NCBI GenBank assembly: GCA_031260285.1
Contig: JAIRKD010000081.1
Span: forward strand, 1-37,620
Reading direction: 5' to 3'
Origin: Gemmatimonadota bacterium
GTDB lineage: Bacteria; Gemmatimonadota; Gemmatimonadetes; Longimicrobiales; Longimicrobiaceae
DNA length: 37,620 bases
Of the stretch, positions 12,372-17,293 are shown in pieces. The translations under genes were made by a program, and so were the position numbers. The notes beneath the pieces are model-generated. The model did no database searches. It saw only the letters and a list, made by a program, of their open reading frames with translations, and had not been told where the DNA came from. Positions within the stretch are counted from its first letter, which is position 1. Each line of letters opens with the position of its first letter.

Positions 12372-12794
12372 ATGGCTGATAACAGCGCAAACGCGGAACT
12401 GACCCCCGGGATCCCTGTTGCAGGGGAGAGCTCCGGTCGCGTCCGCCGGCCACGTACACGGGCGTTTTACTCGATCGGGGAGGTCTGTTCGATGATCGGG
12501 GTGAAGCCTCACGTCCTCAGATACTGGGAGAGCCAGTTCCGGGAGCTTTCGCCGGCGAAGAACCGGTCCGGAAATCGCGTTTATCAGACCCGTGAAATCG
12601 AGCTCATCGCGCTGATCCATACGCTGGTTCATGAGCAGCGTTACACGGTGGAAGGTGCCCGGAAACGACTGGCGGAGCTGCGGGAGGAAGGGATGGCTGC
12701 TGAGGATTCCGCCCAGTCGCTGCAGCGGGTCTTCCTGCGATCGCTCGGGGAGGAACTGAAGGAGCTGAGCGACCTTCTGGACCCCGCGCGGTGA
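12372..12794 (+). CDS. MerR-family transcriptional regulator
   Basis: DNA-binding protein of 140 residues. A polar 30-residue N-terminal segment is followed by the MerR winged helix-turn-helix: FYSIGEVCSMIGVKPHVLRYWE, then a NRSGNRVYQTREIELIALI wing and second helix. A short dimerisation helix follows (GARKRLAELREE and LRSLGEELKELSDLL). No Cys-rich or large effector domain is visible, so a metal or drug sensor role is not supported. Starting one base after the gpsA stop, it is the last gene of der-plsY-gpsA-merR and may regulate lipid genes or itself; this is inference from position only. Confidence 0.88.
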   Translation: MADNSANAELTPGIPVAGESSGRVRRPRTRAFYSIGEVCSMIGVKPHVLRYWESQFRELSPAKNRSGNRVYQTREIELIALIHTLVHEQRYTVEGARKRLAELREEGMAAEDSAQSLQRVFLRSLGEELKELSDLLDPAR

Positions 12795-12846
12795 TCCGGA
12801 TGTTGCTGCTGGTTGTCATGCCACCCGCCGCGGAAGCGGTGTGTGA

Positions 12847-12880
12847 CCGCCGAAGGCCGCTGACTCGTTTGGCGGCTTTT
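12847..12880 (+). terminator. probable terminator of the der-plsY-gpsA-merR operon
   Basis: CCGCCGAA (12847-12854) pairs with TTTGGCGG (12868-12875) with one G-T pair, followed by CTTTT. An alternative GCCGC/GCGGC hairpin inside the same stretch also abuts TTTT. Confidence 0.6.
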
Positions 12881-12927
12881 CGATTCACGGACCTGACTGT
12901 CATGCCGGTGCGCCGGCGATTCTGTTT

Positions 12928-13677
12928 ATGCTGATTCTCTGCACCAACGACGATGGATATTTCGCGACGGGTCTGGGAGTACTCGCCGAAGCTGCCCGCT
13001 CAGCCGGCGAAGTCCGGATTGTCGCGCCTGACCGCGAACAGAGTGCTACCAGCCACTCCCTGACGATGCATCACCCGCTTCGCGCTCATCGGGTGAACGA
13101 CTTCACCCAACGCGTGGATGGAACGCCGACCGACTGCGTGGCACTCGCCCTTGGCGCTCTCCTTGATCAGAAGCCGGATGTGGTTCTGTCCGGAGTGAAT
13201 CATGGAGCGAACATGGGGGAGGATGTACTCTATTCAGGCACTGTGGCGGGGGCGATGGAAGCCACGATCCTGGGGATCCCGGCGATCGCTTTTTCCTATA
13301 CCGGGCGTGACCCCGAGGCGATTGTCAAAATCCGTCCGCTGCTGGAACGTCTCATCACCCAGCTGCTCAGCCAGCCGGAGTTTCCCCCGGAGACACTGCT
13401 GAATATCAACATCCCTCCGGTCGAGACAGAGGTCCGGGGGGTTCGTGTCACCCGGCTGGCGCGGCGCGTCTATACAGGATCGCTGACGCGGGCCCACGAC
13501 CCCAGCGGCCGGGAATACTTCTGGATAGGTGGTGGTGCCTCGGAGTGGAAGGCGGACGAGGATTCCGATTTTCATGCCGTGAAGAATGGCTATATCTCGG
13601 TGACCCCTCTTCATCTTGATCTGACCAATTACAAGCTCCTTTCAGGTATGCGGGAGTGGGGGCTCACCCATGAGTGA
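12928..13677 (+). CDS. surE: 5'/3'-nucleotidase SurE
   Basis: Metal-dependent nucleoside-monophosphatase and survival protein. The N-terminus LILCTNDDGYFATG carries the metal-binding Asp8-Asp9. DREQSATSHSLT and SGVNHGANMGEDVLYSGTVAGAMEA (with Asn91) are the other family blocks. The 249-residue length is typical. The ATG at 12928 begins the canonical motif at residue 2, so the start is secure although no strong ribosome site is seen. It overlaps pcm by eight bases, the classical surE-pcm stationary-phase repair pair. Confidence 0.96.
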   Translation: MLILCTNDDGYFATGLGVLAEAARSAGEVRIVAPDREQSATSHSLTMHHPLRAHRVNDFTQRVDGTPTDCVALALGALLDQKPDVVLSGVNHGANMGEDVLYSGTVAGAMEATILGIPAIAFSYTGRDPEAIVKIRPLLERLITQLLSQPEFPPETLLNINIPPVETEVRGVRVTRLARRVYTGSLTRAHDPSGREYFWIGGGASEWKADEDSDFHAVKNGYISVTPLHLDLTNYKLLSGMREWGLTHE

Positions 13678-14332
13678 CCGCTTCGCCGCCCAGCGACGAG
13701 CGCTGATTGAGCGTATCCGGGAGCGGGGCATCGGAGAGCTGGAGATCCTGCGCGCGTTTGACCTCGTGCCCCGGCATGAGTTCCTTCCCCAGGCCGTCCA
13801 TCATCGTGCCTATGAGGATACTCCGCTGCCGATCGGTTTTGGGCAGACCGCCTCACAGCCCTCTCTTCAGGCGCTGTACATCCAGCTGCTGAAGCTCAGT
13901 CCGTCTGACAAGGTGCTGGAGATCGGTACGGGGAGCGGGTTCCAGACCTCGGTGCTGGCTTCGCTGGTGAGTAACGTCTACTCCGTGGAGCGCCTGCGGC
14001 CGCTGTCCCTCTCAGCGCGCGAGTCGCTGGACCGGCTGCGGGCTTCCAATGTGGCGCTGCTGGTGGGGGATGGGACAATCGGCTGGGCTCGATACGCGCC
14101 TTACGACGCGATTCTGGTTGCCGCGGGTTCGCCATCCATTCCTGAACCGCTTGTCGAGCAGCTTGCGGTGGGTGGGCGGATGCTGATTCCTGTAGGCACC
14201 CGGGAGGGCCAGAAGCTTCAGATGATCGTAAAAACCGCATCGGGGTACAATGTGCGTGACGTAAAGGAATGCACCTTCGTTCCACTGGTCGGGCGGTTCG
14301 GCTGGGCAGAGAGTACTCTGACCGAGCGATAG
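13670..14332 (+). CDS. pcm: protein-L-isoaspartate O-methyltransferase
   Basis: Repairs isoaspartyl residues in aged proteins with S-adenosylmethionine. FDLVPRHEFLP, YEDTPLPIGFGQTASQP and VLEIGTGSGFQTSVLA (SAM loop) are the family signature blocks, followed by VYSVER, VGDGT and DAILVAAGSPSIPEPLVEQLAVGGRMLIPVG. The length of 220 residues is normal. The start overlaps the surE end by eight bases. The stop is about 40 bases before a tRNA promoter. Confidence 0.96.
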   Translation: MSDRFAAQRRALIERIRERGIGELEILRAFDLVPRHEFLPQAVHHRAYEDTPLPIGFGQTASQPSLQALYIQLLKLSPSDKVLEIGTGSGFQTSVLASLVSNVYSVERLRPLSLSARESLDRLRASNVALLVGDGTIGWARYAPYDAILVAAGSPSIPEPLVEQLAVGGRMLIPVGTREGQKLQMIVKTASGYNVRDVKECTFVPLVGRFGWAESTLTER

Positions 14333-14370
14333 ACCCCGTCAGGCACAGCGGGTGGAGGATACCGGTCGGG

Positions 14371-14399
14371 TTGCCGCCTGTCGGGCTACGGACTATCTT
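14371..14399 (+). promoter_or_regulatory. promoter of tRNA-Arg
   Basis: TTGCCG (14371-14376) and TATCTT (14394-14399) are separated by exactly 17 bases, and the tRNA begins 29 bases after the -10 box. A CCCCCG/CGGGGG hairpin with a GAGA loop (14409-14424) sits in the short 5' leader. Confidence 0.55.
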
Positions 14400-14428
14400 T
14401 TTCTGTTTCCCCCGGAGACGGGGGGGGC

Positions 14429-14502
14429 GCCCTCGTAGCTCAGGCGGATAGAGCGACGGATTCCTAATCCGTAGGCCGTGGGTTCGAGTCCCGCCGAGGG
14501 CA
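14429..14502 (+). tRNA. tRNA-Arg (anticodon CCU)
   Basis: A full cloverleaf can be drawn: acceptor GCCCTCG (14429-14435) with CGAGGGC (14495-14501), and D-stem GCTC/GAGC (14438-14441/14451-14454). The anticodon stem ACGGA/TCCGT encloses the loop TTCCTAA, with anticodon CCT at 14463-14465. The T-arm is GTGGG-TTCGAGT-CCCGC, and the discriminator is A14502. CCA is not encoded. It reads AGG codons. A strong terminator follows at 14517, so it is a stand-alone gene. Confidence 0.96.
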
Positions 14503-14516
14503 TTCCGGCTTATTAC

Positions 14517-14549
14517 AGCCCTGTCGTCAATTCGACGGCAGGGCTTTTT
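14517..14549 (+). terminator. rho-independent terminator of tRNA-Arg
   Basis: AGCCCTGTCGTC (14517-14528) pairs with GACGGCAGGGCT (14534-14545) with one T-G pair, over a loop of about 5 bases, and the 3' side runs into TTTTT (14545-14549). Confidence 0.9.
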
Positions 14550-14767
14550 GTATTCTGAAGAAATAAGTGCAGATATGTAATTCCAACTTTAAGCGTGAAA
14601 TGTGAATTCCGGGATCCGCTGGTATGTCCAATGTTGGAAAACCGTCGATCAGGTGGAACCTTTAGGTGGTAAAATTGTAGATTGGCCGTTGATCTAACGG
14701 AATGATTACGTACATGAGTTGGGGGATGAAGAAATTTCTCTCGGCAATCTGTAATCACCGACCACGC
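14550..14767 (+). other. AT-rich gene-free stretch after tRNA-Arg
   Basis: Composition changes sharply here: by hand count 14521-14580 has 24 G+C in 60, far below the neighbouring genes. No ORF of note is present. CCGTT (14686-14690) and AACGG (14696-14700) form a perfect inverted repeat over GATCT, possibly an operator for the following gene. No integrase or insertion-sequence end was found. Confidence 0.5.
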
Positions 14768-14777
14768 AAGGGAGCAT

Positions 14778-15245
14778 ATGTGTAATACTCAGATGGTTTT
14801 TCGTGCTGTGACTATATCGGTATGCTCCATTATTGGGTTCGTGGTTCCTGCGATAGCTCAAAATGGATTGACTGATAATCGATGGGTTTCGATATATGAA
14901 GATGAAGAGAAGAGCGTGGACCTTGATACTAGGCGGTCCGAAGGGTTGAATGGCGGGCGTCCGGCTGCGTGGTTGCGTTGGACGTTCGGTGAGGAGCAAG
15001 CGATTAATGGGGTGAGGTATGTGATAATGTTTGACCGGAGTACTTATGATTGTCGTAATTTTGCGATTCGTAGTGAAAGCGCGACATATCATGACCAAGA
15101 GGGAAAAATGGTCGATGGTTGGGATAATCCTCTCAGTTATTCCGGGCTTTCTGAATACGGCGAATGGTCCTCGGTGCGTCCGGGGAGTGTTGGAGAGTAT
15201 CTTTTGGAAGAAGTATGTGCGTATGCCCAAACTCAAGGACGCTAA
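14778..15245 (+). CDS. secreted surface-adhesin-E-like protein
   Basis: A 155-residue protein with a clear Sec signal peptide (hydrophobic core VTISVCSIIGFVV, cleavage after AIAQ). The mature part has W-x-SIYEDEEKSVDLDTRR, then AAWLRWTF, a 'YDCRNFAIRS' Cys segment and SVRPGSVGEYLLEEVC at the end. That pattern (W, VDL, one central Cys and PGS-x-GE-x-C at the C-terminus) resembles the Adhesin_E family, and the two Cys could form a disulphide. The assignment is by pattern only. AAGGGAG at 14768-14774 fixes the ATG. Base composition is AT-richer than its neighbours, with many A/T-ending codons, suggesting recent acquisition beside the tRNA. Function is unknown. Confidence 0.75.
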   Translation: MCNTQMVFRAVTISVCSIIGFVVPAIAQNGLTDNRWVSIYEDEEKSVDLDTRRSEGLNGGRPAAWLRWTFGEEQAINGVRYVIMFDRSTYDCRNFAIRSESATYHDQEGKMVDGWDNPLSYSGLSEYGEWSSVRPGSVGEYLLEEVCAYAQTQGR

Positions 15246-15438
15246 TCCCGGCGAGGTGACGAACAACTGGTTCTCGGGCATTTGATGGGCCCAAACTAGG
15301 GTTGCCTGATCTAGGGGATAGAGCTAGTTTTCATTTTTGTTTTGTGAAATGGTCGTAGAGATTTGAATGGTCCCTTGGGAAGCAAGCCAAGAGGGCGTTA
15401 TTGTTGGCGAGTCAGTTGATTTCTGAGTGGGTTTGGAG
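15246..15438 (+). other. AT-rich non-coding stretch
   Basis: By hand count 15301-15360 contains 24 G+C in 60. It holds T-runs but no supported gene. It looks like the right half of the low-GC island, or the remains of a degraded gene; no family could be recognised in any frame. Confidence 0.4.
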
Positions 15439-15466
15439 CCGGGTCCTTCGAAGGATGCGGTTTTTT
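15439..15466 (+). terminator. terminator closing the AT-rich island
   Basis: CCG at 15439-15441 pairs with CGG at 15458-15460, and the inner TCCT/AGGA helix closes a TCGA loop with one mismatch between them. TTTTTT follows directly at 15461-15466. Confidence 0.7.
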
Positions 15467-15517
15467 GCAGCACGCTGTATATGTTAGGCATACATCTCTC
15501 TCAGCATTCAGGGTTCT

Positions 15518-16216
15518 ATGGTCGCGCAGTCCACGACACGCCGTCCCGGACGGACGTCACAGATCGACGGAGACGACGCCGTTCTCGCCAGAGCGCTTGA
15601 GGTCACGGAGTGGGTCAAGCGAAACTCGGGGATCGTGCTGGGGGCGCTGGCCGCGCTTCTGGTGCTGGTCGCGATCTTCTTCTGGTACCGGGCGGATCGG
15701 AACCGTCGGCTGGATGACGCGGCAATCGCCTACCTGCAGGTTGAGCAGTCCGCGCAGATCGGGGATGAAGCAACCGCGGCGCGGGATCTCCAGGAGTTCA
15801 TCCAGCGGCATGATGGCACTCCCTACGCGGATGAGGCGCGGGTGCTGCTCGGGCAGATTCAGCTGAGAGCGGGCCGGGCACAGGAGGCGATTCCGGTTCT
15901 GCAGCCGGTTGCGGAGAAGCTGAATGGATCGCTGGTGGGTCCGCAGGCGGCGCTGCTGCTCGCAACCGCCCGCGCAACAACGGGGGATGCTCCGGGGGCG
16001 ATCGAGGCCTATCTGCGGGTCGCGAATCAGTCGGACTCACAGTTCCGGCAGACGGAAGGGCTGATGGGCGCCGCGCTGCTCCGTTCGGAGGGTGGTGATC
16101 ATGCGGGGGCCGCGGAGCTCTATCGCCGGCTCGTAGACATGCAGGAAGCCGGTTCCGCAGACAGGTCGCTCTTCGAAATGCGACTTGCCGAGGAAGAGGC
16201 GCTCGCGGGACGTTGA
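15518..16216 (+). CDS. YfgM-like membrane-anchored TPR protein
   Basis: 232-residue protein with a polar cytoplasmic N-terminus, a single transmembrane segment at about residues 38-57 (GIVLGALAALLVLVAIFFWY) and a helical-repeat periplasmic domain. The repeats include DEARVLLGQIQLRAGRAQEAIPVLQPV, LLLATARATTGDAPGAIEAY and GAALLRSEGGDHAGAAELYRRLVD. This topology and the TPR-like domain match the YfgM / PF09976 family, which works beside the Sec translocon and periplasmic chaperones in E. coli. The ATG at 15518 has only a weak AGGG upstream. It follows the island terminator by about 50 bases, so a promoter must lie in that gap. lgt follows. Confidence 0.8.
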   Translation: MVAQSTTRRPGRTSQIDGDDAVLARALEVTEWVKRNSGIVLGALAALLVLVAIFFWYRADRNRRLDDAAIAYLQVEQSAQIGDEATAARDLQEFIQRHDGTPYADEARVLLGQIQLRAGRAQEAIPVLQPVAEKLNGSLVGPQAALLLATARATTGDAPGAIEAYLRVANQSDSQFRQTEGLMGAALLRSEGGDHAGAAELYRRLVDMQEAGSADRSLFEMRLAEEEALAGR

Positions 16217-16300: not shown

Positions 16301-17293
16301 ATGATTCCCGTCGCTGCCGCGATTCTCGAAATCGGATACCATTTCCTCGACCCGGTGGCCATTCCGCTCCCGGGGCCGGTGGACGTCCGCTGGTACGGGC
16401 TGGGGTATGTCTTCGCCTTCACCGTCGGTTTCTTTGTCCTCCGGTATCTGAGCCGGGGGGGGTATCTCTCCCTGGATGAAGAGGGAATCAGCGATCTTAT
16501 CTTCGGGCTGATTCTCGGGACGATCCTCGGAGCGCGGATCGGCTACATTCTCTTCTACGATTTTGAGATGTTCGCGGCGAATCCCGCGCGGATCATCCGG
16601 CTCTGGGAGGGAGGGCTGTCCTTTCACGGTGGGCTCATCGGTGTGGTTCTGGCGGCGTGGTGGTTTGTCCGCAAACACCGGATCAGCCTCATCCATGTTC
16701 TGGATAATCTGGCGCTGGGTGTGCCGTTCGGAATCTTTGCGGTTCGTCTGGCCAACTTCATCAACGGCGAGCTGTACGGGCGGATCACGACAGACGCCGT
16801 TCCATGGGCGATGCGTTTTCCCACGGACCCGACTGCCCTTCAGCTGATGGGGATTGAGCGCGTTTACGGGATCCGTGAACGCGAGCTCGCAATCCTTGAG
16901 GCGCATCATTCGGGCGTCTGGGATGCAATCCGTGACCAGGTTCCGCTCCGTCATCCTTCCCAGCTCTATGAAGCTTTTACGGAAGGGCTGCTGCTGGGGC
17001 TTATCCTCTGGGCGATCTTTCTCATCGCAAAACGCCGGGGGGTCAGACTGCCGGAGGGGCTTCTTTCCGGGGTGTTCCTGACCGGGTATGGAATTTTCCG
17101 CGCTTTTGTGGAGCTCTTCCGCCAGCCGGACGCGCAGTTCAGAGACGCCAACGATGCGCTGGGTACGGTACTGGGTCCGCTTACGATGGGCCAGACGCTC
17201 AGCATCGGGGTGATTGTGGCGGGTCTCTACTTCCTGTTCCGGGCGCTCAGGGCGGCTCCGGCGAAGGAACCGGTCAGGGCAAGACAGCCCTGA
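16301..17293 (+). CDS. lgt: prolipoprotein diacylglyceryl transferase Lgt
   Basis: Inner-membrane enzyme that attaches diacylglycerol from phosphatidylglycerol to the lipobox Cys of prolipoproteins. Signature blocks are VRWYGLGY, LGARIGYILFYD, WEGGLSFHGGLIG (conserved His), RLANFINGELYGR (the Lgt signature with Arg, Asn and Glu) and RHPSQLYEA. About seven hydrophobic segments are visible. An extra stretch of about 45 residues lies between ELYGR and RHPSQ, so the protein is longer (330) than E. coli Lgt (about 290). The ATG at 16301 lacks a clear ribosome site. Its substrates in this window include the lipoproteins at 32, 7701 and 19024. Confidence 0.96.
   Translation: MIPVAAAILEIGYHFLDPVAIPLPGPVDVRWYGLGYVFAFTVGFFVLRYLSRGGYLSLDEEGISDLIFGLILGTILGARIGYILFYDFEMFAANPARIIRLWEGGLSFHGGLIGVVLAAWWFVRKHRISLIHVLDNLALGVPFGIFAVRLANFINGELYGRITTDAVPWAMRFPTDPTALQLMGIERVYGIRERELAILEAHHSGVWDAIRDQVPLRHPSQLYEAFTEGLLLGLILWAIFLIAKRRGVRLPEGLLSGVFLTGYGIFRAFVELFRQPDAQFRDANDALGTVLGPLTMGQTLSIGVIVAGLYFLFRALRAAPAKEPVRARQP

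Follow-up and report, generated by a model that had tools for sequence, protein, structure and literature searches.

An AT-rich island with an Adhesin_E-family gene between tRNA-Arg(CCT) and a yfgM-like gene in a Gemmatimonadota genome

Genomic islands can be linked to tRNA genes; the asparagine tRNA islands of Klebsiella are reportedly an example. The 3' half of a tRNA in front of a gene is the type of scar that is left by an integrating element. The Adhesin_E family, to which the gene described below belongs, was named after protein E of Haemophilus influenzae. According to the available part of one report, the Haemophilus protein promotes adherence via binding of laminin domains (PMC7248048). 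The accessible text of a second report states that many hotspots are free of recognisable mobile elements and that recombination at the flanking core genes is frequent (PMC5635113). Nothing was found in the literature on the Adhesin_E family in Gemmatimonadota or on the junction of tRNA-Arg(CCT) and yfgM.

The locus studied here is part of a stretch of 37,620 nucleotides, which was analysed as a whole and is referred to as the window. Judged by pcm, the nearest named relatives are assemblies of Gemmatimonadota and Longimicrobiales. Its local order is surE, pcm, tRNA-Arg(CCT), AT-rich island, yfgM-like gene, lgt. In all likelihood, the island is a foreign segment of about 0.7-1 kb, which consists of one gene with its own control signals and was inserted between tRNA-Arg(CCT) and yfgM-lgt. 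The features are the following:

12928..13677, + strand: surE, conserved flank (NCBIfam TIGR00087, 217.8 bits, cut-off 135.1; Pfam PF01975)
13670..14332, + strand: pcm (protein-L-isoaspartate methyltransferase), conserved flank (NCBIfam TIGR00080, 207.7 bits, cut-off 159; Pfam PF01135)
14429..14502, + strand: intact tRNA-Arg, anticodon CCT (ARAGORN; Rfam RF00005, 69.3 bits)
14503..15517, no strand: AT-rich island, 47.0% G+C, from the tRNA to the yfgM-like gene (composition scans)
14517..14549, + strand: terminator-like hairpin of the tRNA gene (14517-14545) with T-run (terminator scan)
14768..14774, + strand: possible ribosome-binding site AAGGGAG (by eye)
14778..15245, + strand: ORF of 155 aa (Pfam PF16747 Adhesin_E)
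15246..15256, + strand: imperfect match to the tRNA 3' end, at chance level, no attachment site
15439..15466, + strand: terminator-like hairpin with T-run at the island end (palindrome search, fold)
15518..16216, + strand: yfgM-like gene (TPR protein), conserved flank (Pfam PF09976 TPR_21, 56.5 bits; present in 59 of 61 genomes)
16301..17293, + strand: lgt, conserved flank (NCBIfam TIGR00544, 219.7 bits, cut-off 118.9)

The original prediction of an AT-rich island in a GC-rich surround agrees well with the composition of the window. The segment delimited there, 14550-15466, contains 46.8% G+C and the complete island 14503-15517 contains 47.0%, compared to 62.3% elsewhere in the window. The lowest stretch of 917 bp off the island has 58.0% G+C (mean 0.622, sd 0.014 in the window). 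In a sample of 297 kb from 20 stretches of the same genome, none of 11179 intervals of 917 bp was as AT-rich as 14550-15466 (minimum 0.471); three other segments with less than 50% G+C occur in this sample. The ends of the island and of the genome's other AT-rich segments have only 12-base matches in common (E 0.96 or worse), and no long repeats were seen in the island. With regard to the edges, the predicted location between tRNA-Arg and the yfgM-like gene is correct, but a scan in 50-bp steps showed that the AT-rich part already starts at about 14503 and reaches to about 15500.

The ORF is flanked by terminator-like features, which are the hairpin 14517-14545 with its T-run upstream, and the hairpin 15439-15460 followed by a T-run (15461-15466) downstream. 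The second hairpin is absent from the list of the terminator scan, though it is palindromic and present in the fold. Judged by eye, a similar hairpin with a T-run follows the tRNA in most of the relatives printed. A match of the Rfam model L10_leader over the tRNA terminator was below the gathering score and was taken as chance. The GC skew (G over C, + strand) is 0.25-0.29 across 14503-15517, which is the maximum of the window. On the other side of the tRNA, the gap to pcm (14333-14428) measures 96 bp; it is 0.4-2.3 kb long in the eight family relatives compared and usually contains open frames there.

The G+C content of the ORF at the three codon positions is 0.54, 0.46, and 0.43 (GC3 0.432), compared to 0.68-0.75 at the third position of the five neighbouring genes. 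Codon usage had been proposed as a check of the island. For 227 other ORFs of at least 150 aa from the window and the genome sample, the mean GC3 is 0.708 (sd 0.062) and the lowest value is 0.48; the island's gene is below all of them.

The 155-aa protein had been described as secreted and adhesin-E-like. The family assignment is confirmed by a match to Adhesin_E (PF16747) with 35.6 bits (cut-off 23.7, E 1.2e-8), which covers positions 1-109 of the 109 positions of the profile. The domain corresponds to residues 36-148 and contains two conserved Cys residues (C92, C147). Secretion is suggested by the N-terminus, which by eye is hydrophobic and signal-peptide-like over approximately residues 1-28 and has a cleavage-like end, AIAQ. 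The protein would probably be exported via Sec, cleaved after about residue 28 and linked by a disulfide between Cys92 and Cys147; its location would then probably be the periplasm or the cell surface. Aligned with 13 relatives from the family, the order and the class, the protein shows strict conservation of Asp50, Cys92, and Trp130 and near-complete conservation of Cys147. The window protein is 16-29% identical to these relatives, and its binding partner can therefore not be inferred from them. Surface binding is a putative function, guessed from the family name. None of the NCBIfam models matched the protein, and no solved structure in the PDB was matched by sequence or profile. A structure model computed from the single sequence had a mean pLDDT of 38.7 and was too poor for a fold search.

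Matches to PF16747 that exceed the cut-off were obtained for 10 of the 61 genomes, namely the host genome, eight other members of the family and one genome of the order (G041). In these eight of the 20 other family members, all genes reside at other places, and the window contains the only Adhesin_E gene on a yfgM-bearing contig. The closest protein among 395 genomes of the phylum, as determined in a single-protein search, is 35% identical and originates from another family of the class. No relatives of the window protein were detected in 84,980 species genomes by a search reaching close relatives only, or in plasmids, phages and viral contigs, the latter again searched for close relatives only. 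For a comparison of composition, 33 Adhesin_E-like loci including that of the window were considered, two of which were without a usable ORF. Among the resulting 31 loci, only the gene of the window is clearly AT-richer than its flanks (0.48 vs 0.63), and the lowest GC3 in the other 30 is 0.58. In G015 (L049, contig C139, 42531-43751), the distance between an Adhesin_E-like gene and a broken fragment that corresponds to positions 3-63 of an integron integrase is about 0.7 kb.

These data bear on the possibility that the gene is native to the family and that its composition drifted in place, with no insertion at all. The occurrence of Adhesin_E proteins above the cut-off in nine of 21 family genomes, the host included, would be expected in this case. 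On the other hand, no other copy in the family is found on a yfgM-bearing contig, none of the 30 other usable copies is equally AT-rich relative to its flanks, and none of the 13 aligned proteins is a close relative of that of the window. A native gene is therefore unlikely. The PF16747 proteins of eight of the 20 other family members nevertheless leave a little room for an old family gene that was moved here and drifted afterwards.

Insertion of a foreign segment, the reading preferred here, was further assessed by comparing the same place in 20 other genomes of the family. A yfgM-like match was present in 19 of them (not in G012), and the upstream DNA was read in all 19. The stretches from G002, G017 and G019 stop about 0.6 kb or less from yfgM and are little informative, which leaves 16 informative relatives. 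The island is absent from the tRNA-Arg(CCT)/yfgM place in 16 of these 16, and no homologue of its DNA was found among the loci collected for comparison (best blastn E 0.79). Presence of the same segment, equally AT-rich, at this place in every relative, which had been named as the result that would speak against the original prediction, was looked for in the family relatives and not found.

The distance from the tRNA to the start of the yfgM match is 49 bp in G005, 158 bp in G004, and 305 bp in G010, and all three relatives have surE and pcm upstream. The distance increases to about 5 kb in G006 and to 13.7 kb in G014. In the stretches read of G001, G007, G008, G009, G011, G013, G015, G016, G018 and G020, tRNA-Arg(CCT) does not occur upstream of yfgM. 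In G001, the sole other member of the genus in the comparison, tRNA and yfgM are located on separate contigs with unrelated neighbours, and the genus thus offers no clean empty site. The yfgM stretches of 21 order-level relatives did not show the tRNA beside yfgM in any case, and the comparison was then confined to the family. Because the yfgM match starts 49-305 bp past the tRNA in three relatives, a short spacer was probably the original state, to which the segment was added. The edges of the island cannot be placed to the base, since it has no DNA in common with any relative. Given the foreign composition and the absence in relatives, acquisition is the best reading. The long distances in G006 and G014 and a tRNA scar in G003, described below, suggest that the tRNA-Arg(CCT)/yfgM junction is an insertion hotspot.

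Foreign composition could also stem from an error in assembly or binning. The host genome of 2.76 Mb is 98% complete and consists of 110 contigs with 4.78% contamination, figures that allow for such an error. However, the island lies inside one contig and the gene order of the family is preserved on both sides. An artefact would therefore require two false joins and is very improbable.

The original prediction went further and took the island for an acquired cassette whose integrase is absent or lost. Acquisition is in accordance with composition, GC3 and absence in relatives; integration by an integrase is not substantiated, as neither a repeat of the tRNA end above chance nor an integrase was detected in the island. 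A finer version of the acquisition reading, and not exclusive of it, regards the island as what remains of an element that a tyrosine recombinase integrated at the 3' end of tRNA-Arg(CCT), the integrase and the distal repeat having been lost later. The island indeed begins at the 3' end of the tRNA. Furthermore, only the 3' half of this tRNA, 45 bp long, is left in G003 (L152, contig C99, 5637-5681), where it precedes yfgM by about 70 bp; no intact tRNA is present there. The intact tRNA of G003 is located beside pcm on a different contig and agrees with this sequence in 40 of 45 bases, compared to 23 of 45 at the second-best position of the contig with the scar. This suggests that an element has used tRNA-Arg(CCT) in the family. 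A related case may exist in G015 (L158, contig C108, 13270-15140), where part of another tRNA-Arg(CCT) is repeated exactly over 33 bp. About 170 bp separate this copy from an ORF in which motifs like those of tyrosine recombinases were recognised by eye; Pfam gave no match. CHAT-domain and Mrr/AAA proteins are encoded between this ORF and the tRNA.

Within the island, the marks of such an integration are missing. A match to the tRNA 3' end had been noted and regarded as too weak for an attachment site, which proved right, although its position is 15246-15256 and not 15247-15257. For lengths of 14, 17, and 20 nt, the match was equalled in 44, 103, and 212 of 1000 shuffles, respectively; when 34 other stretches of the window were examined, 6, 15, and 19 of them contained an equal one. 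A search for exact repeats of the tRNA end, proposed along with the prediction, gave no direct repeat above chance in the island. The frames of the island contain no integrase, phage remnant or mobile gene. In the host genome, two PF00589 proteins were found, which are XerD (over the cut-off) and a XerC-like protein, which matches XerC best but falls slightly short of the cut-off; PF00239 is absent, and no integrase beyond these two was found. No integrase occurred among 20 ORFs scanned near the tRNA or yfgM in G001, G002, G003, G006, and G009. Integration at the tRNA is thus possible, but can be proposed only tentatively.

The other finer version of the acquisition reading assumes that the segment entered by recombination between the conserved flanking genes or by another integrase-free route such as transformation. 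It is consistent with the absence of mobility genes and long repeats from the island, and with the many hotspots without recognisable mobile elements mentioned in the accessible text of PMC5635113. A second AT-rich insert in the same genome points in the same direction. This insert (L272, contig C99, 11926-13467) has a G+C content down to 47%, contains one ORF of 193 aa (12418-12999) with no Pfam family, and lies in a type II secretion cluster, where a gspE-like gene and gspG are its neighbours. The 20-kb stretch around it yielded no tRNA. An integrase-free route leaves the linkage to the tRNA and the scar in G003 unexplained; it is a realistic possibility, if still short of an even chance. 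Because repeat and integrase are both missing in the window, the two routes are both retained. That the island and the L272 insert are two products of one integrase-free route, by which AT-rich genes encoding orphan or exported proteins would enter spacers of conserved gene clusters one by one and with no integrase of the genome's own, is a good deal less probable and in itself quite unlikely.

Elsewhere in the host genome (L258, contig C20, 8011-14276), a partly AT-rich region carries genes for an MmeI-type restriction-modification protein, a helicase and a member of the RhuM family. These genes begin about 0.4 kb past a cluster of five tRNA genes, and the region is likely a defence island.

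A single AT-rich gene could also be an integron gene cassette that was inserted outside an array. Integron integrases above the curated cut-off are present in three of the 21 family genomes, namely G002 (L285, contig C7), G003 (L286, contig C522), and G010 (L284, contig C347), and one core-like site of the type GTTRRRY, GTTAGGC, is located at 15483. However, the host genome has no integron integrase above the cut-off, and no pair of attC-like sites was detected in the window, the detector being crude and used with no positive control. The region folds no better than shuffled sequences (z -1.03), four GTTRRRY-type sites on both strands compare with about two expected, and the ORF is about 270 bp away from both edges. 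Altogether, a cassette is extremely improbable. GTTAGGC at 15483 together with its 10-nt inverted repeat at 15221-15230 was considered as a sign of a cassette and rejected, as the fold and the scan for site pairs were both negative. A crude scan also revealed no attC pairs near the integrases of G002, G003, and G010. Upstream of the scar in G003, a stretch of about 20 residues resembles, by eye, the start of an integron integrase; the search for the integron family did not report it and no claim is made.

For the acquired island, the following course of events can be proposed. The gene would be a leftover of an element now gone, or cargo that came with it; alternatively, it would have entered by recombination between the flanking conserved genes, leaving no integrase. 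Its transcription would end at the hairpin 15439-15466, so that yfgM would be little affected.

The tRNA-Arg(CCT) junction is thus a place in a little-studied phylum where gene content varies among relatives, one of which bears an integration scar. The island's gene is a divergent, foreign-looking addition to a poorly understood family of exported proteins. No general view is changed by these findings. The window protein matches the whole Adhesin_E domain and has the conserved Asp, Trp and two Cys in common with its relatives; it differs in being divergent and in having no match to a solved structure. Protein E of Haemophilus binds host proteins, according to the available part of PMC7248048; such binding is hypothetical for the window protein. 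In contrast to tRNA-linked genomic islands, the island is about 1 kb long and contains one gene, but neither an integrase nor a repeat of the tRNA end. It resembles them in being foreign DNA beside the 3' end of a tRNA that is absent from relatives. With the hotspots lacking mobile elements, as far as the accessible text of PMC5635113 describes them, it has in common a variable content between conserved neighbours and no mobility genes. The island, read as one horizontally acquired gene at a hotspot linked to a tRNA, is a feature of an ordinary, known kind.
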